Assembly (NCBI RefSeq): GCF_017876755.1
Contig: NZ_JAGIOO010000001.1
Location: 930,001 to 994,000 of the forward strand
Reading direction: 5' to 3'
Origin: Crossiella equi
GTDB taxonomy: Bacteria > Actinomycetota > Actinomycetes > Mycobacteriales > Pseudonocardiaceae
DNA: 64,000 bases
Shown here: positions 56,822-64,000 of the stretch, piece by piece
How positions within the stretch are numbered: the stretch's first letter is position 1
Layout of the letters: each line of letters starts with the position of its first letter
Translations under genes and position numbers: made by a program
Notes under the pieces: generated by a model
What the model was told of the DNA's origin: nothing
What the model saw: the letters and a program-made list of their open reading frames with translations, nothing else
Databases searched by the model: none

Positions 56822-57283
56822 TCACCACCAGGACGAGCACCGGACGGTCGGGTCCGGGTAGACCGAACCGCAGACCCGGAAGCTGTAGTCCGGGTGCGTG
56901 CGCTGGGCGGGCGTGGTGGCCGACCCGCCGCTCCGGTTGTTGGCGAACGGTCCACATTGGAGCCACGGGGTCACCGGGCCGCCGGACCAGTCCATCCAGA
57001 ACCGGTCGCTGCCCGCCGGGGAGGTCTTCCCGGCCAGGTGGGCCCAGCCCCGCTGCACACCGTTGACCGTGCCGTAGTACAGCGAGAAGTACACCGGGGT
57101 GGTACCGGCGTTGACGGTGAACCCGGTGGCGTAGGTGCCGGTGTAGCTGTCCGGGATGTCCACGAACCCGTTGGTGCCACCGGTGCACTGGCCGGGCGAG
57201 GCACTGGCCACCCCGGTCGGCCCGACGGCCAGGACGCCGACCGCGAGCGCCAACGCCGCGGCCGCGCTGAAGATCTTCCGCAT
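56822..57283 (-). CDS. small secreted protein of unknown family
   Basis: 153 aa. Signal peptide MRKIFSAAAALALAVGVLAV to about residue 29 (ASA). The mature protein is beta-rich with aromatic residues (YFSLYYGTVNGVQRGWAHL, FWMDWSGG) and four cysteines (QCTGG, LQCGPF, RVCGSV, RCSSWW). GGAAGAG precedes the ATG. It starts 29 bp after the giant protein gene stop and is probably cotranscribed with it. No family recognised. Confidence 0.75.
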   Translation of the reverse strand: MRKIFSAAAALALAVGVLAVGPTGVASASPGQCTGGTNGFVDIPDSYTGTYATGFTVNAGTTPVYFSLYYGTVNGVQRGWAHLAGKTSPAGSDRFWMDWSGGPVTPWLQCGPFANNRSGGSATTPAQRTHPDYSFRVCGSVYPDPTVRCSSWW

Positions 57284-57312: not shown

Positions 57313-60300
57313 TCAGCCGTAGTCGTGGTGCGGCACGGTGCCGTCGGAGCAGAACACCATGCTGGTCGGGTTGGCGTCGGCGGGATCGGCCAGCGCCATG
57401 CCCCAGGGGTTGCCCTCCTGGTCGGCGCGTGCCGGGTTCTCCCCTTCCGGCTGCCGCTGGCAGAAGCCCCACTGGTGCTGACGGGGCGGCAGGGCGGTGA
57501 AGTTGCCGTAGTTGCCCCTGGTCACCGGCTCGGCCGAGGGACGGGCGGAGCCGTCCAGGTTCATCGCCTGGCCGTCGCGGTAGAGGTACAGGTCGGGCAT
57601 GAAGCTGTTCAGCGCCACCGGGGTCGAGGCGTTGACCTTGCGCAGCGACTGGTCCGCGCACGAGGCGAAGTGCAGCTCGTGGTGGATCGGGGAGGCGTGC
57701 GCGAACGGCGAGCCGAGCGCCGGGTTGGGGTCGAAGAACAGGTTCTGGAAGTCCAGCGCGGTCTGGGCGACACCGTGCGGGAGGTTCTTCAGGTCGCGTG
57801 CGGCCTTGACCTGGTTGGCCCACCGGGCCACCTGCGCGGTGAGGTAGTCGCTGGCCAGTGCGGTCCGCAGGGCGATCGCACCGCCACCGGCACCGTGCGC
57901 GACCACGCAGTCGACCGTGCCGCCCGAGGACCCCGGCATCTGCACCAGCTGGGGCGGCGCACCGCCGAAGCGGTAGGCCCGCGCGTTGAACACACCGGTG
58001 CTGTTGCCGTTGACGTGGGTCGTCTTGTGGTTGTGCTGGTTGGCGTCCACCAGGTCGAACTGGAGGTCCGGCGGTGCGATGCCGTAGTCGCGGTGCAGGG
58101 CACCGAACAGGGGCACCAGCATCGGCGGCAGGTGGGTGTTGGCCGTGCGGTGCTGGTAGTCCACGTCCTCCGAGCCCGGCACGATGCGCCCGTCGTCACC
58201 GCGCAGGAACGACGCGGTGGCCTGGGTGCGGATCTTGTACGCCAGGTCGTCGTTCATGAACCAGTCGGGCAGGTAGGCCGAGGTGGGCCGCTTGTCGACG
58301 TGGTTGGAGAAGCCCAGCCACTGCGGGATGCTCTTGCCCCTGGGGTGGTTCACCGGATCGGTGCCCGCCGCCACGATGTTGTCCCGCCACGAGGTGAACA
58401 CGTCCTTGACCGCGGGCCGCACGCACGCGTCGCTGGCCACCTCGCCGCAGACCGGCTTGTTCACCACCTGGCCGGTCAGGTCCATGGCCCAGTTGTAGAT
58501 GGACTGGCGGCTCTCCAGCTTCCCCGCGATCCAGGTGGCCGGGAGGATGGTGTCCAGGTTCTGGTTCTCGTCGAAGTAGGCGACGCTGTCGACCTTGTCC
58601 TCGAAGTAGGTGCCCTTCACCGGGACCAGGGCGAGCGCGTCCCAGGCCACCGTGCCGACGTCGGCGGTGGTGTCGGTCTTGGTGATGTTGCTCAGCTCCA
58701 CCGTGGAGCCCGGGCCCAGCACGTACACGCCGAGGGACTTCCAGTGGTTGAAGTGCTCGTGCTGGTTGATCACCTTCTCCGAGACCGTGCCGTTGGCGGT
58801 CTTGATCTTGTAGACCGCGCTGCCCGCCGACGCGCCCGCCGTCGGGATGTGCGCGCGGACCATGTAGGTGCCGTTGGCGCCCAGGTTCGGCTTCCAGGTG
58901 CCGGTCACGCGCTTGGCGGGCTCACTGGCCAGCGCGTTGCCCGCGAACCAGGTGTGCGCGCCCATGCCGGTGGCCACCTGGTGGAAGTTGATCTCCGAGA
59001 TGGGCATGCCCGCCGAGGTCTTGCCGAAGTCCAGCGAGAACGTGCCGCCGCTGCTCCAGTCGACCCCGTTGCAGAAGATGTTCGTGCCCGGCGAGGACGT
59101 CTCGTCGACGATGATCACGTTGTTGGGCAGGCCCTTCGAGCACGCGGGCGGCCACGGGTTGTCCCCCGCGGGCTCCGGGTCACCGGCCCGGAAGGCGTAC
59201 GGCGAGGCCGCGCACACCTTCGAGCAGTCGACCTGCATGGTCACCGGCGAGTGCCACCAGCAGTGGAAGGCGAGGTCGCCCTCGGTGTAGTTGCAGCGCT
59301 TGGCGGTGTCCGGGTTGCAGTTGTTGGCGCTGGTGCACAGCAGCTTGCGGTCGGGGTAGGTGATGGTGCCGCTGCTGGTGTTGCCGGGGCTCTTCAGCGC
59401 CGGGCGGTAGGCGTCGACGCCCTTGAAGTCCTTGATCGGCGTCTCGGTCCAGCCCAGCACGCGCTCCTGGTACGGCCACTCCCACGGGCGCGCCGCGTCG
59501 GCGTAGCTCTGCCGCAGGAAGACCGTGCGGCCCTCGCGGTAGGAGTCGTTGTTCGGGTTGTTCGTCCAGCCCAGGCCCCAGTTGCCCGCGCGGTCGGTGC
59601 AGGACGGGCTCGGGGTGCAGCCGGTCGGGTTGCCGGTGGCCGCGCTGGGCTGGATGCCGGAGTTGTAGGCCCACAGCGCGAAGTACCAGTTCTCCACGAG
59701 CTCCGGGTTGCTGTTGTTCATCCGGATGCCCATGTCCTGGAGGGTGTTCCACTTGTCCGCCAGGATCTGCATGCCCGCCGTGATGTTCTCGGCGTAGTCG
59801 ACGGCGATCTTGGCCTTGCCGTTGGGCGTGATGCTGGTGTCCGAGGCGCTCATGCCCGTGGTCACCTGCGCGATGCCGTAACCGCAGTCGGCCTGGTCGT
59901 AGTCGATGTTGTCCAGCCCGCCCTTGGCGCCGTAGTAGTCGCCGATCAGCGGGTTGCCGCCGGAACCGGGCAGGGCGCGCCAGGTGGCGTGCTTGTAGGC
60001 GCTCTCCTGCGCCAGCACGCCGTTCATCACCACCGGCGGGACCCGGCCGTTGTTCGGCTTGAGCGCCGCGACCGGGAAGTCGGAGCTGGGGTTGTACGCG
60101 GGCAGGCCGGTCTTCCGGTAGTCGGCGGGCCGTCCCGGGAGCGCCTTGAGGGTGGCCAGGTCGACCGCCCACGCGGTCTGGTTGGCGATCGGGCCGTAGG
60201 CCTGGCGGTTGGGCTGGTTGCGGGGCACCGCGCACTTGGGCGTGGTGAAGTTGCCCTGCGCGCTGCGCTCGCCGGTCGCGGTCATCCGCTGCTCCGGCAC

Positions 60301-61467
60301 GCCGGTGCCGATCTTGGTGCCGGGGGTCAGCTGCACACCGGTGCGCAGGGTCTCGCCGTTGCCCAGCCAGACCAGGGCGGTGCCGCTGCCGAGCTCCTCC
60401 CGGCGGCCGCGCTTGTCCTCCACCGCCTTGGGCAGGTCGGTCAGCGCGATCTTGCCCTCGGCGCTGACGTCGCGCACGCGCATCTCGGGGCCGGACTTGG
60501 CGGCCTTCGCGTACTGCTCGGCCTTCGGCTTGGCCGCGGCGATGCCGGTGCGAGAGGCGCGTTCGGTGCCGAGCAGCCTGCTCGCCCCGGCGGCCGGGGC
60601 GAGCAGCTGGGCGGCCGGGTCGGCGGTGCTGGCCTGTTCGGTGAGCTTGCGGTCGGCCAGGTCCAGCGCGCGCAGCACGGTGCGCTCGCCCGCGCGTTCG
60701 GTGAACTCCAGCGTGCGGCCACGCACCCCGGCGATCTCGACGCCGCCCCTGGCCTCGTGCACGACCTCGGCCCGCTCGGGCTGGGCCGTGCTGACGCGCA
60801 CGATCTGGTTGCCGCGGCGGAGGAAGGTCCGGTCGCCGTCGAGCACCGGGTCGACGAACTGGCCGTCGAGCTGGGCGACCCGGGTGGTCTTCGCGGCGGC
60901 GGGATCGATCGCGAAGACACCGGTCCGGGTGGTCTCGGTGTCGCTGTAGGAGAGCACGGCCGCGCGGCCGTCCTGGCCGCAGCGCAGGCTGGCGCTGTTG
61001 ATCGCGGCGCCGGTGGCGACCGGCTTGACCGCGCCGTCGGCGAGGGCGACCGAGTAGACCAGGCCGCCGCCCGCGAGGTATTTCGGCTTGTTCACCGCGC
61101 GACTGGTGATGAGGCTGACCACGACGTGCTTGCGGTCACCGGTCAGGCAGTACTGGCCGAGCCAGCGGTCGTCGGCGTCGAACGGTTTCACGGTGGCCAG
61201 CGAGCGGAATGCGTAGGAATCGCGTTCCCGGCCGACGAAGAGGTGGAAGCCGTCCTCGTCGCCATTTCCGGTGACCAGTACGTCGTCACCGTCGGCCCAT
61301 TTCGGCGCCAGTTCGTTCAGCCGGTCCAGCACCCGCAGCTGGGTGTCTTCCTGGCCCTGCGGTGCGCTTTCGTGGACCGGTCCGTCCGCTTGCGCCACCG
61401 CGGGCGGAAATAACATCGCCGCCGCGACCACGGCCGCCGCACCAGCGGCGTACTTGGGTCTTTTCAC
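57313..61467 (-). CDS. giant secreted protein with lytic-transglycosylase-like and golvesin-like domains
   Basis: 1384 aa. Signal peptide to about residue 27 (PPAVAQADG). Residues 30-350 look like a beta-propeller-type region. At about 455-620 is an SLT/lysozyme-like domain (VMNGVLAQESAYKHATWRAL with the catalytic-type Glu, CGYGIAQVTTGM, WYFALWAYNSGIQP). A Cys-rich, Trp-rich part follows, then a golvesin-C-like beta-sandwich at about 890-980 (GTYMVRAHIPTAG, INQHEHFNHWKSLGVYVL). The C-terminal 350 residues (NHVDKRPTSAYLPDWF, HHELHFASCADQSL) are not recognised. Probably cleaves peptidoglycan outside the cell. GTG 61467 preferred over ATG 61506 because it opens a normal signal peptide. Confidence 0.8.
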   Translation of the reverse strand: MKRPKYAAGAAAVVAAAMLFPPAVAQADGPVHESAPQGQEDTQLRVLDRLNELAPKWADGDDVLVTGNGDEDGFHLFVGRERDSYAFRSLATVKPFDADDRWLGQYCLTGDRKHVVVSLITSRAVNKPKYLAGGGLVYSVALADGAVKPVATGAAINSASLRCGQDGRAAVLSYSDTETTRTGVFAIDPAAAKTTRVAQLDGQFVDPVLDGDRTFLRRGNQIVRVSTAQPERAEVVHEARGGVEIAGVRGRTLEFTERAGERTVLRALDLADRKLTEQASTADPAAQLLAPAAGASRLLGTERASRTGIAAAKPKAEQYAKAAKSGPEMRVRDVSAEGKIALTDLPKAVEDKRGRREELGSGTALVWLGNGETLRTGVQLTPGTKIGTGVPEQRMTATGERSAQGNFTTPKCAVPRNQPNRQAYGPIANQTAWAVDLATLKALPGRPADYRKTGLPAYNPSSDFPVAALKPNNGRVPPVVMNGVLAQESAYKHATWRALPGSGGNPLIGDYYGAKGGLDNIDYDQADCGYGIAQVTTGMSASDTSITPNGKAKIAVDYAENITAGMQILADKWNTLQDMGIRMNNSNPELVENWYFALWAYNSGIQPSAATGNPTGCTPSPSCTDRAGNWGLGWTNNPNNDSYREGRTVFLRQSYADAARPWEWPYQERVLGWTETPIKDFKGVDAYRPALKSPGNTSSGTITYPDRKLLCTSANNCNPDTAKRCNYTEGDLAFHCWWHSPVTMQVDCSKVCAASPYAFRAGDPEPAGDNPWPPACSKGLPNNVIIVDETSSPGTNIFCNGVDWSSGGTFSLDFGKTSAGMPISEINFHQVATGMGAHTWFAGNALASEPAKRVTGTWKPNLGANGTYMVRAHIPTAGASAGSAVYKIKTANGTVSEKVINQHEHFNHWKSLGVYVLGPGSTVELSNITKTDTTADVGTVAWDALALVPVKGTYFEDKVDSVAYFDENQNLDTILPATWIAGKLESRQSIYNWAMDLTGQVVNKPVCGEVASDACVRPAVKDVFTSWRDNIVAAGTDPVNHPRGKSIPQWLGFSNHVDKRPTSAYLPDWFMNDDLAYKIRTQATASFLRGDDGRIVPGSEDVDYQHRTANTHLPPMLVPLFGALHRDYGIAPPDLQFDLVDANQHNHKTTHVNGNSTGVFNARAYRFGGAPPQLVQMPGSSGGTVDCVVAHGAGGGAIALRTALASDYLTAQVARWANQVKAARDLKNLPHGVAQTALDFQNLFFDPNPALGSPFAHASPIHHELHFASCADQSLRKVNASTPVALNSFMPDLYLYRDGQAMNLDGSARPSAEPVTRGNYGNFTALPPRQHQWGFCQRQPEGENPARADQEGNPWGMALADPADANPTSMVFCSDGTVPHHDYG

Positions 61468-61558
61468 GTCTGCTCGCTTTCCGATTCGGATTGACGGAAA
61501 AATCATCCACAGCCGAATGGGGCGGGAGCAACGGTTTCACACAGGGCTTAATTTGCTC

Positions 61559-61603: not shown

Positions 61604-61753
61604 TCACCAGCGAATACCGGCCATGGTGGGCGCGGCAACGCCGTTCACCCGGAGTCGGTACGCACCGGCGGGGGCTCCGGCGCACGTCCAGGACCGCGGC
61701 GGGGCACAGGCGGCGAACGCGGTGCCGAGGACCCGGCTGGGCGTCCTGCGCAT
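61604..61753 (-). pseudogene. A-family remnant (A5), internally deleted
   Basis: 49 codons from an ATG preceded by GAGGAGAG. It joins a short Met-Arg-Arg start to the C-terminal third of an A protein (APPRSWTCAGAPAGAYRLRV, ending AGIRW), which aligns with EDPPRSWTCSNYPTGHYTVKV...IGIRW of A4. The signal peptide and central strands are missing. It still has start, stop and ribosome site, so a short peptide could be made. Confidence 0.6.
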
Positions 61754-61767
61754 GTGCTCTCCTCGCT

Positions 61768-62112
61768 CTACCAGCGGATGCCGATGTTGGACGGTCCCTG
61801 CGGGCCGGTCACCTTCACCGTGTAGTGGCCGGTGGGGTAGTTGGAGCAGGTCCAGGACCGGGGCGGGTCCTCGGCGCGGAAGGTCGTGCCGCATGTGCGG
61901 CCCTGGCCGGACACCGACCAGGAGGCCGTGCCACTGCCGTGCACGTCGGCGTCCACGTGGAAGGTGTTGGCCTCGATGGTCAGGCCGAACACGCACTCGT
62001 TGGTGGAGCAGTCCTGGTACTTGCCGCCCGCGTGGGCGACCTGCGGCAGGAGCACGAAGGCGCTCGCCGCGACGACGGCCGGGAGAACACCACGGAGGAG
62101 CTTCTCGCGCAC
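61768..62112 (-). CDS. A-family small secreted protein, copy 4
   Basis: 114 aa from a GTG. Signal peptide (LLRGVLPAVVAASAFVLLPQ) ends about residue 28 (AHA). The mature part has four Cys (QDCSTNEC, GRTCGTT, SWTCSN), DADVHGSGTASWSV and the family end GPQGPSNIGIRW. It starts 4 bp after the A3 stop. No known family. Likely a compact disulfide-bonded beta protein. Confidence 0.82.
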   Translation of the reverse strand: MREKLLRGVLPAVVAASAFVLLPQVAHAGGKYQDCSTNECVFGLTIEANTFHVDADVHGSGTASWSVSGQGRTCGTTFRAEDPPRSWTCSNYPTGHYTVKVTGPQGPSNIGIRW

Positions 62113-62116
62113 GGGG

Positions 62117-62491
62117 TCAGCTCCCGGTCGGGTTGTCGAGCCAGCGCAGGCCGATGGTGGTCGAGCCCTGCGGGCCGGTCACCCGCGCGTGGAAGCGGCC
62201 CTTCGGCGGCCAGCTGCGCAACCATGAGCCCGGCCCGGCGGCCGCGTCGAACTCCTGGACGTTGTACCAGTCGTAGTCCAGGCTCCACAGTTCCCAGCGC
62301 GCGGTGCCGGTGCCGTGGGCGTCGGCGTCGATGGACAGGCCGCCACCCTTGTAGCCGGAGGTGTACAGGTCACAGACCGTGCCCTGGCAGGTGGAGGAGA
62401 ACGCGGCGGCCGAGGCGGCCTGCGGGAGGAGCACCGCGGCGGAGGCGGCGACCACGCCGACGACCGCGGCGCGGGAGAGGATCTTGCGCAT
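62117..62491 (-). CDS. A-family small secreted protein, copy 3
   Basis: 124 aa. Signal peptide MRKILSRAAVVGVVAASAAV to about residue 28. The mature part keeps the first Cys pair (STCQGTVCDLY), DADAHGTGTARWEL, GPGSWLRSW and GPQGSTTIGLRW but has lost both later cysteines and has a unique tail LDNPTGS. Loss of both later Cys together suggests that they form a disulfide in A1, A2 and A4. No B gene follows it. Confidence 0.82.
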   Translation of the reverse strand: MRKILSRAAVVGVVAASAAVLLPQAASAAAFSSTCQGTVCDLYTSGYKGGGLSIDADAHGTGTARWELWSLDYDWYNVQEFDAAAGPGSWLRSWPPKGRFHARVTGPQGSTTIGLRWLDNPTGS

Positions 62492-62580
62492 CAGTACCCC
62501 AGAGTTGTTGCGGGAGAGGGAAATCAGGCGAGGAAGTAGCGGCAGTCGACGATCGCGTCGGTCTCACTGCTGGCGGGCGC
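62471..62580 (-). repeat. direct repeat, copy 2 (B2 end / spacer / A3 start)
   Basis: Nearly the same as 63191-63300: ATCTTGCGCATCAGTACCCC, AGAGTTGTTG, then the B C-terminal coding run. Copies are 720 bp apart, which is the A-B unit length, and differ mainly by a short indel in the spacer. Confidence 0.8.
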
Positions 62581-62859
62581 GTACCGCGTGCCCGGCGCGT
62601 AGGCCTGGATGCGGTAGAGGTTGCCCCGGTCCCACTGCGCCGTGCACATCTGCACGTCGGTGGCGTTGGTGAACTTCTGCAACCCCTGCTGGTGCACGTC
62701 CGAGGGCAGGTCGCGGTACCACTGGTAGGCGAAGGTGTACGCGGCGCTCTGGCTGGCCACGATGTAGTTCCCGCTGTCCGCGGCCGCCACACCGGGCAGG
62801 GCGGACAGCGCGGCACCCACGGCCACGGCGACCGCCGCGGCGCGCACCGGGGCGCTCAC
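62524..62859 (-). CDS. B-family small secreted protein, copy 2
   Basis: 111 aa from a GTG that overlaps the A2 stop (GTGA). Signal peptide (APVRAAAVAVAVGAALSALP) ends at about residue 26 (AAA). The mature part is aromatic and polar: YTFAYQWYRDLPSDVHQQGL, FTNATDVQMCTAQWDRGNLY, SSETDAIVDCRYFLA. Two Cys, one near the middle and one six residues before the end. Family unknown. Confidence 0.82.
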   Translation of the reverse strand: MSAPVRAAAVAVAVGAALSALPGVAAADSGNYIVASQSAAYTFAYQWYRDLPSDVHQQGLQKFTNATDVQMCTAQWDRGNLYRIQAYAPGTRYAPASSETDAIVDCRYFLA

Positions 62860-63206
62860 CAGCGGAGACCGACGTTGGACGGCCCCTGCGGCCCGTCGAT
62901 GCCCGCGCTGTAGGTACCGGCGGGCGCGTTGAAGCAGAGCCAGGAACCGGGGCCCCACTCCGCCCGGATCGTGATCTTGCAGTAGTAGCCGTTCGGCCCC
63001 CACACCTGCAGGTAGGCGTTGCCGGTGCCGTGCACGTCGCCGTCCACCGAGATGGTGCCGCCCGGGAAGTCGGTGGCCACCACCGTGCAGTAGTTCCGTT
63101 GACAGGTCGCGCTCTCCGGCTTGGCGACCGCGACCTGCGAGGTCAGCAGGGCGGCGGAGCCGACAACCGCGGCCGTGACCGCGGCACGGGACAGGATCTT
63201 GCGCAT
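62856..63206 (-). CDS. A-family small secreted protein, copy 2
   Basis: 116 aa. Signal peptide MRKILSRAAVTAAVVGSAAL, cleavage about residue 28. The mature part has four Cys (TCQRNYCTVV, YYCKIT, WLCFNA), DFPGGTISVDGDVHGTGNAY, GPGSWLC and the end GPQGPSNVGLRW. Its TGA overlaps the B2 GTG. Pair A2-B2 is a near copy of A1-B1. Confidence 0.83.
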   Translation of the reverse strand: MRKILSRAAVTAAVVGSAALLTSQVAVAKPESATCQRNYCTVVATDFPGGTISVDGDVHGTGNAYLQVWGPNGYYCKITIRAEWGPGSWLCFNAPAGTYSAGIDGPQGPSNVGLRW

Positions 63207-63300
63207 CAGTACCCCAGAGTTGTTGTGGGAAAAGGAAATACTGGGTCAGGCGAGGAAGTAGCGGCAGTCGACGATCGCGTCGGTCTCACTGCTGGCGGGC
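63191..63300 (-). repeat. direct repeat, copy 1 (B1 end / spacer / A2 start)
   Basis: Partner of 62471-62580. The spacer between the B stop and the A start is conserved as well as the coding ends, which indicates a recent unequal duplication of one A-B unit. Confidence 0.8.
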
Positions 63301-63581
63301 TGCTTCCCGGAGCGCGGCGCGTAGCCCTGGATCCGGTACAGGGTCCCGCGGTCCCACTCCGCCGTGCACATCTGCACATCGGTGTCGTTGGAGAAGTACC
63401 GCAGCCCTTCCTGGTGGACCTCCGCGGGCAGGTCCAGGTACCACCGGTACCAGTAGGTGTGGTTGACGTTCTGGCTGCTCACCGTGTAGTTCCCGGTGTC
63501 CGCGGCCGCCACGCCGGGCAGGCCCGCGAGCGCGGCCCCGGCGGCGAGTGCGACCGCCGCGAGCCGGACCTTGGCGCTCAC
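63246..63581 (-). CDS. B-family small secreted protein, copy 1
   Basis: 111 aa from a GTG overlapping the A1 stop (GTGA). Signal peptide AKVRLAAVALAAGAALAGLP to about residue 26. The mature part aligns with B2: YTVSSQNVNHTYWYRWYLDL, NDTDVQMCTAEWDRGTLYRI, SSETDAIVDCRYFLA. The last 50 bases and the spacer to A2 are almost identical to the B2-A3 junction. Confidence 0.83.
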   Translation of the reverse strand: MSAKVRLAAVALAAGAALAGLPGVAAADTGNYTVSSQNVNHTYWYRWYLDLPAEVHQEGLRYFSNDTDVQMCTAEWDRGTLYRIQGYAPRSGKQPASSETDAIVDCRYFLA

Positions 63582-63931
63582 CAGCGGAGGCCGATGTTCG
63601 TGTCGCCCTGCGGGCCTTCGACGCGGGCGTTGTAGGTGCCCGCGGGCGCGTTGTGGCAGAGCCACGAGCCCGGGCCCGCCGAGGCGTGGAAGGTGTTCTC
63701 ACACCGGTAGTCGTTCGGCCCCCAGACGGTCCAGCGGCCGATCCCCACGCCGTGCACGTCGGCGTCCACCGAGAGGGTGCCGCCGGGGAAGTCGGTGACG
63801 TCCCAGAGGTCGCAGTAGCTCATCGAACAGGTCACGCTCGACGGCTCAGCCATCGCCACCGGTGCGGCCAGCACGAGGCTGGCACCCACGGCCGCGGTGG
63901 TGATCACGCCGCGCAGCATGGATCCACGCAT
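63578..63931 (-). CDS. A-family small secreted protein, copy 1
   Basis: 117 aa. Signal peptide (MLRGVITTAAVGASLVLAAP) to about residue 28 (AMA). The mature part has four Cys (TCSMSYCDLW, YRCENT, WLCHNA), DFPGGTLSVDADVHGVGIGR, GPGSWLC and the end GPQGDTNIGLRW. First gene of the array in this window; ATG 63931 or 63919. The spacer to the window end (63932-64000) holds TTAAGGT, a possible -10 on the minus strand. Confidence 0.83.
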   Translation of the reverse strand: MRGSMLRGVITTAAVGASLVLAAPVAMAEPSSVTCSMSYCDLWDVTDFPGGTLSVDADVHGVGIGRWTVWGPNDYRCENTFHASAGPGSWLCHNAPAGTYNARVEGPQGDTNIGLRW

Positions 63932-64000
63932 TGGTCTTCCCCAGGATTGTGTGTCGCTGACGGGGCGACCTTAAGACAGCGACCGTCGATGCGGTTGCGG

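Follow-up and report, generated by a model that had tools for sequence, protein, structure and literature searches.

Organization of the locus

The DNA analyzed here, referred to as the window, is a 64,000-nucleotide stretch of the Crossiella equi genome (positions 930001–994000 of a single 9.44-Mb contig), and our subject is an array of genes for small secreted proteins of two families, A and B, that lies near its end. An earlier note, made from the letters of the sequence, had described seven minus-strand reading frames between positions 61604 and 63931, six of them with signal peptides. These frames are confirmed at those positions, in the order A-B-A-B-A-A followed by an A remnant, and because other genomes carry homologues in the same order they are not chance open frames. 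With a home-made signal-peptide heuristic, all six intact proteins carry a predicted signal peptide and the remnant does not, so the description of the array as secreted and multi-copy holds, with four A and two B copies. The array is part of a larger block that extends past both ends of this stretch and consists, in order, of a DUF2690 gene, the A/B array, a gene for a 1397-residue wall-hydrolase-like protein that was absent from the earlier finding, and a gene for a 153-residue secreted protein. The 1397-residue SLT/Golvesin protein and its relatives are called giants below; genomes are labelled with G-numbers and fetched loci with L-numbers. In window coordinates the features are as follows.

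64179–64685 (genome 994179–994685), just past the window end, divergent: DUF2690 gene; PF10901 above the Pfam cut-off, E 1e-8
63932–64000, minus strand: window part of the upstream region of A1, within about 95 bases conserved between cassettes
63578–63931, minus strand: A1, family A, 117 residues, signal peptide, four Cys; module I lineage (tree support 91/58)
63246–63581, minus strand: B1, family B, 111 residues, signal peptide, two Cys; GTG start overlapping the A1 stop by 4 bases; nearest relative the B of G003
62856–63206, minus strand: A2, family A, 116 residues, signal peptide, four Cys; clusters with the first A of G739 (96/91)
62524–62859, minus strand: B2, family B, 111 residues, signal peptide, two Cys; GTG start overlapping the A2 stop by 4 bases; nearest relative the B of G213, then that of G739
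62117–62491, minus strand: A3, family A, 124 residues, signal peptide; lacks Cys3 and Cys4; seven-residue tail beyond GLRW
61768–62112, minus strand: A4, family A, 114 residues, signal peptide, four Cys, GTG start
61604–61753, minus strand: remnant of a fifth A, 49 codons; start of a leader fused to the final third of the A domain; profile match 76–116
57313–61506, minus strand: giant, 1397 residues, secreted; Golvesin_C and an SLT/lysozyme-like domain with Glu501
56822–57283, minus strand: 153-residue secreted protein at the other end of the block; no Pfam match

The content and order of this block are conserved in the window genome, in a genome of the same genus (G003) and in one of another genus (G739), and outside the block no protein matches were found between the fetched stretches of the three. 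The giants of G003 and G739 are 91% and 85% identical, respectively, to that of the window. We regard the secreted block around the wall-hydrolase-like protein as a better unit than the A+B two-component system proposed in the earlier note. A different view of the locus would have A and B unrelated to the giant and merely sharing a mobile or recombination-prone site with it. The position of the cassette indeed differs between genomes, and in G282 (L057:7230-7602) the cassette starts 139 bases from the transfer-messenger RNA gene, a common integration site, and A is widespread without a giant. Such hitch-hiking is nonetheless quite improbable in our judgement, as the whole block is constant in content and order in three genomes and small secreted genes are over-represented beside giants generally (see below).

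Within the array, A2, A3 and A4 are 56%, 44% and 41% identical to A1, respectively, and B1 and B2 are 71% identical to each other. The four cysteines ascribed to family A are present in A1, A2 and A4, whereas A3 retains only the first pair: Cys1 and Cys2 occur in all four A proteins, and the joint absence of Cys3 and Cys4 from A3 suggests that these two residues pair with each other. At the same place in the window and in G003 (L053:9044-9148), the fifth A copy has decayed, leaving a different remnant in each. An alignment of five upstream regions shows that the roughly 95 bases 5′ of A1 are conserved in G003, G213 and G282 and more weakly in G739, and this segment is a probable promoter or leader region. 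The window A1 has a form that is shorter by about 75 bases at the 5′ end, which G739 shares; this may reflect either a loss or a gain.

Sequence and predicted structure of families A and B

Families A and B match nothing in the libraries tried, in keeping with the earlier statement that neither was recognizable. Pfam gave nothing significant for A (best E 0.12) or B (best E 0.055), and the same was true of NCBIfam (best E 0.034 and 0.045, respectively) and, for the array proteins of the window, of PHROGs (best E 0.045). The PADLOC models of anti-phage defence yielded 0 families for the nine block proteins at E ≤ 0.01, and PDB sequences contained no significant match to A or B, the sole profile match for A being ColH at E 1.5. 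By profile comparison A and B are unrelated to each other. A search of PLSDB with a single A and a single B query found no plasmid relative, and among viral contigs the patterns matched 37 and 8 stretches, none of them a relative. In a library of mainly open-access papers without bioRxiv preprints, none turned up on small secreted proteins of Pseudonocardiaceae, and none of those listed on golvesin, DUF2690, SLT, PliG, PPC or Crossiella describes such a system; the golvesin papers deal mostly with amoeba biology.

A structural model of A derived from seven sequences has a predicted local distance difference test score (pLDDT) of at least 90 in 83 of 117 residues, corresponding to nearly the whole mature part, and contains eight strands. 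On this basis A is confidently predicted to be a beta-sandwich, without a close fold match. The model of B, derived from five sequences, reached a pLDDT of 52 and was left out of the fold search. Among the 50 PDB matches listed for A, the likeness is weak and mixed (template modelling (TM) score by query ≤0.54), and the folds are generic: a domain of the subtilisin-like Tk-SP, the collagen-binding domains of ColG and ColH, GOLD, Cry toxin domains, viral capsids, PliG, carbohydrate-binding modules and Ena fibre subunits. A viral fold library likewise gave weak beta-sandwich matches to A, the best of which (TM by query 0.59) was a Halobacterium phage protein.

Several of these known proteins invite closer comparison. 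The PPC and collagen-binding domains (PF04151; those of ColG and ColH) resemble A as secreted beta-sandwiches of similar size, with a weak match at a TM by query of 0.38–0.52. By sequence profile, assignment of A as a PPC domain was rejected: none of 19 A proteins matches PF04151 at E ≤ 1, and the hhalign probability against two PPC domains of the window genome is 0.3%. The carbohydrate-binding module families CBM6, CBM29 and CBM35 share the beta-sandwich with A by weak Foldseek matches (TM by query 0.33–0.46 in the rows listed) but show no sequence match to it, and in the loci read A is encoded alone rather than as a fusion with an enzyme. PliG, the periplasmic inhibitor of g-type lysozyme, is like A a stand-alone exported beta-sandwich (rank 7 in the PDB fold search, TM 0.47/0.48), and A adjoins a lysozyme-like giant; the fold alignment of the two has a root-mean-square deviation of 5.2 Å and 16% identity. 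None of the searches made links DUF2690 (PF10901), which is found in the block and near other giants, to A or B.

Small exported proteins encoded in tandem and modelled as beta-sandwiches might also be structural components of a hyphal or spore surface or matrix. In line with this, Ena fibre subunits are among the weak fold matches and A has a weak similarity to rodlins. The rodlin match, however, is restricted to residues 1–29, that is, to the leader, which led us to reject A as rodlin-like, and the hydrophobic or repeat pattern typical of chaplins is probably absent. We therefore consider a structural role decidedly unlikely.

Distribution and pairing of A and B

Across the taxonomic family, A is detected in 33 of 297 genomes at E ≤ 0.001 and in 25 below 1e-10; matches weaker than about 1e-6 (for example L051 and L052), which are counted in the 33 and not in the 25, look spurious. 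At the level of the class, 4 of 394 genomes carry A, the window included. The gene occurs singly or in arrays, such as four in a row in G097. Tandem A arrays are seen in another genus, with four copies in G097, three in G070 and, in G037, two full copies together with fragments (L036, L037, L038); those of G097 and G070 are flanked on one side by a groEL-side set of genes and on the other by a tsaD-like cluster, both named from the appearance of the sequences. An isolated and distant member of family A, which has additional cysteines, is found at G000:C1:493675-494076 (L020, L108), beside genes that presumably, again from appearance, encode Ku and a protein of the DNA ligase D family.

Family B is rarer, being present in 5 of the 297 family genomes, 1 of the 394 class genomes and at 3 loci in a scan of GTDB genomes from which the window's own or near records were possibly left out. 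When the B profile was run over 390 genomes, 77 matched at E ≤ 0.1, of which only the six below 1e-50 were counted; the next stood at 4e-4, and the others were partial, many of them in frames of more than 1000 residues. A recurrent weak partial match to the B profile (roughly residues 18–92, E 0.003–0.1) falls within frames of about 1250 residues in many genomes of the family (for example G000:C1:1055089-1055298) and is probably a chance likeness to one conserved protein.

All five B-bearing genomes among the 297 also carry A somewhere (hypergeometric probability 3e-6 with the 25 strong A genomes or 1e-5 with all 33, shared ancestry being ignored). The A-B adjacency for which a profile check across genomes had been suggested is seen in 4 of the 6 genomes with B; it fails in two Kibdelosporangium genomes (G175 and G067), where no A lies within 1.5 kb on each side of B or within 8 kb (L054, L055) and A is found elsewhere. 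Where the two adjoin, the A stop and the B start overlap by 4 bases (GTGA) at all five junctions seen, namely two in the window and one each in G003, G213 and G739, an arrangement that favours coupled translation of A and B. The proposal of a two-component system thus survives as a linkage, in that junctions overlap and types co-vary, whereas an obligate pairing does not, and the term itself is too strong because A usually occurs without B.

With respect to ancestry, a tree of A sequences places the window A2 with the first A of G739 (support 96/91) and the window A1, more weakly (91/58), with those of G003, G213 and G282. The nearest relative of B1 is the B of G003, and those of B2 are the B of G213 followed by that of G739. 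These relationships point, in our reading, to two lineages of modules, named I (A1+B1) and II (A2+B2), in which the A and B types mostly co-vary. Only the window retains both modules; G003 keeps I, G739 keeps II, and G213, whose cassette is A-B-A-A, has a mixed pair of A1 with a B2-type B. The G282 cassette is A-A-A, and its A1-A3 spacer (L057:8466-8555) contains a short segment similar to the 3′ portion of B, which we read as the relic of a lost B gene. Upstream of its cassette, G282 also retains 47 bases that match the DUF2690 gene.

The array had been described as under diversification. Taken as positive selection this is not borne out, since the ratio of nonsynonymous to synonymous substitution rates (dN/dS) in the mature parts is below 1 in every pair: 0.40–0.89 for A1-type proteins, 0.27–0.75 for B, 0.10–0.45 for A3 (the lowest of the four groups) and 0.14–0.98 for A4. 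These are plain Nei-Gojobori estimates from short, GC-rich genes; selection at single sites could escape them, and dN exceeds dS in a few comparisons of leaders. These values bear on the possibility that A and B act independently as secreted antagonists of other microbes, whether toxins or antimicrobials, and are encoded by diversifying tandem copies. Proteins that are secreted, multi-copy and patchily distributed, with modules exchanged and lost between strains and tandem A arrays in other genera as well, would suit such a role. It is, however, unlikely in our view, given purifying rather than diversifying selection on the mature parts, no dedicated immunity gene recognized next to the array, and the lack of matches to PADLOC models or models of known toxins.

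The giant protein and its small secreted neighbours

In the window giant, Pfam detects Golvesin_C (PF25275) above the cut-off and SLT (PF01464) below it, at 16.6 versus 21.3 bits. Among 24 aligned giants, that of the window included, no variation is seen at Q500, E501 and S502 (QES), at D540–G544, Q547 and T549 (together DCGYGxxQxT) or at Y614–G617 (YNSG), and 23 of them have N574. The catalytic Glu and surrounding SLT/lysozyme motifs, which we take to be a lysozyme/SLT-type catalytic signature, are thus present even though the Pfam SLT cut-off is not reached, and we read the giant as an enzyme of this type. Compared with described SLT lytic transglycosylases and Golvesin_C proteins, the giant shares Golvesin_C and the SLT-type motifs and differs in its subthreshold SLT score and in its length of about 1400 residues with large uncharacterized regions. 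At E ≤ 1e-20, 15 of 120 family genomes contain a giant. Two of six other giants scanned have a ricin-type lectin domain at the C terminus, and because further giants have lectin neighbours, lectin modules occur both fused and separate. Two further giants lie in the window's own genome (7970729-7978168, L146), beside a 124-residue secreted protein, a ricin-type lectin and a subtilase.

Small secreted genes accompany giants more widely. Counting proteins of at most 200 residues with a signal peptide, encoded on the same strand within 400 bases (by a home-made gene finder and signal-peptide rule), we found such a neighbour for 17 of 28 giants, or for 14 of 24 without the orthologous loci L053, L092 and L105; L142, lacking a giant call, was dropped. 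The latter rate compares with 14 of 99 among control genes (p 2e-5 by Fisher's test, a descriptive value, as the pattern was first noticed and then tested in the same loci with thresholds set afterwards). Controls were genes of at least 300 residues from the same loci and from 16 more that had been fetched for A or B or adjoin the array, which should raise the control rate. The neighbours include ricin-type lectins at three loci (L146, L135 and L145), two PG_binding_1 proteins in L139, a DUF2690 protein adjoining the giant in G109 (L133) and separated from it by two genes in G085 (L140, below the cut-off) and G054 (L143), an I36 "peptidase inhibitor" family protein in L144 (a gene also contained in L098), and, in L104/L105 and L141, proteins that match no family.

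One way to connect A and B with such an enzyme is inhibition, in which they would be secreted, immunity-like inhibitors of the giant or of related wall hydrolases of neighbours, and cassettes without a giant would be orphan immunity. The giant's resemblance to an active lysozyme-type enzyme, the G213 and G282 cassettes that persist without the block's giant, the appearance of PliG among the weak fold matches and the I36 family protein beside one giant are all consistent with this possibility. PliG is, however, one of many equally weak beta-sandwich matches, the lectin and PG-binding neighbours of other giants suit binding better, and no positive selection is seen; taken together, we find inhibition improbable.

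Proposed role of the array

The explanation that we tentatively favour, without holding it to be established, is that A and B are secreted, non-catalytic partners of the giant wall enzyme. The products of the array would be exported and work extracellularly together with the giant of the same block. In this scheme A would be a small beta-sandwich stabilized by disulfides, and B, translated by coupling to the preceding A, would probably bind that A. The A/B, DUF2690 and 153-residue proteins may attach to the wall or to extracellular polysaccharide, and the attached proteins could then target, concentrate or restrain the wall-cutting giant. We favour such an accessory role because the block order is kept in three genomes with different flanks, because the lysozyme-type motifs are invariant and small secreted genes are enriched beside giants, and because of the lectin and PG-binding neighbours, the fused lectin domains, the GTGA overlaps and the presence of several carbohydrate-binding modules among the weak beta-sandwich matches of A.

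A number of observations weigh against an accessory role. Most other A genes lie in unrelated places, away from giants, and the G213 and G282 cassettes lack the block's neighbours as well as its giant. Among ten chosen genomes, no giant match at E ≤ 0.001 was obtained in the B-bearing Kibdelosporangium genomes G175 and G067 or in a Crossiella genome with A (G001); in the same set, G213 has a 34% identical giant relative elsewhere and G282 a short piece only. Of the six other giants scanned, four have SLT, always below the cut-off (best 16.3), and two lack it. As for the neighbours, 10 of the 24 giants have none of the kind counted, at least two of those counted (L136, 88 residues; L143, 133 residues) resemble membrane or lipoproteins, and the enrichment was tested in the loci that suggested it. 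The fold matches of A, finally, are to generic folds.

A broader proposal, which we regard as possible but doubtful, is that the giants of Pseudonocardiaceae make up a modular secreted system of an undescribed kind. In it, the wall-cutting core would be conserved and combined with exchangeable small partners, A/B here and lectins, PG-binding or DUF2690 proteins elsewhere, that set its specificity or control, and A-B pairs would be matched, co-translated modules swapped between strains. At the level of this locus, the analysis makes a testable system of what had been an orphan cluster of small secreted proteins, with a defined block, a likely enzyme partner and two co-inherited pair lineages, and natural variants are on hand in G282, which appears to have lost B, and G213, with its mixed pair. 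If the modular proposal is true, some of the orphan genes for small secreted proteins in filamentous actinomycetes would encode partners that set the specificity or control of wall-active enzymes.

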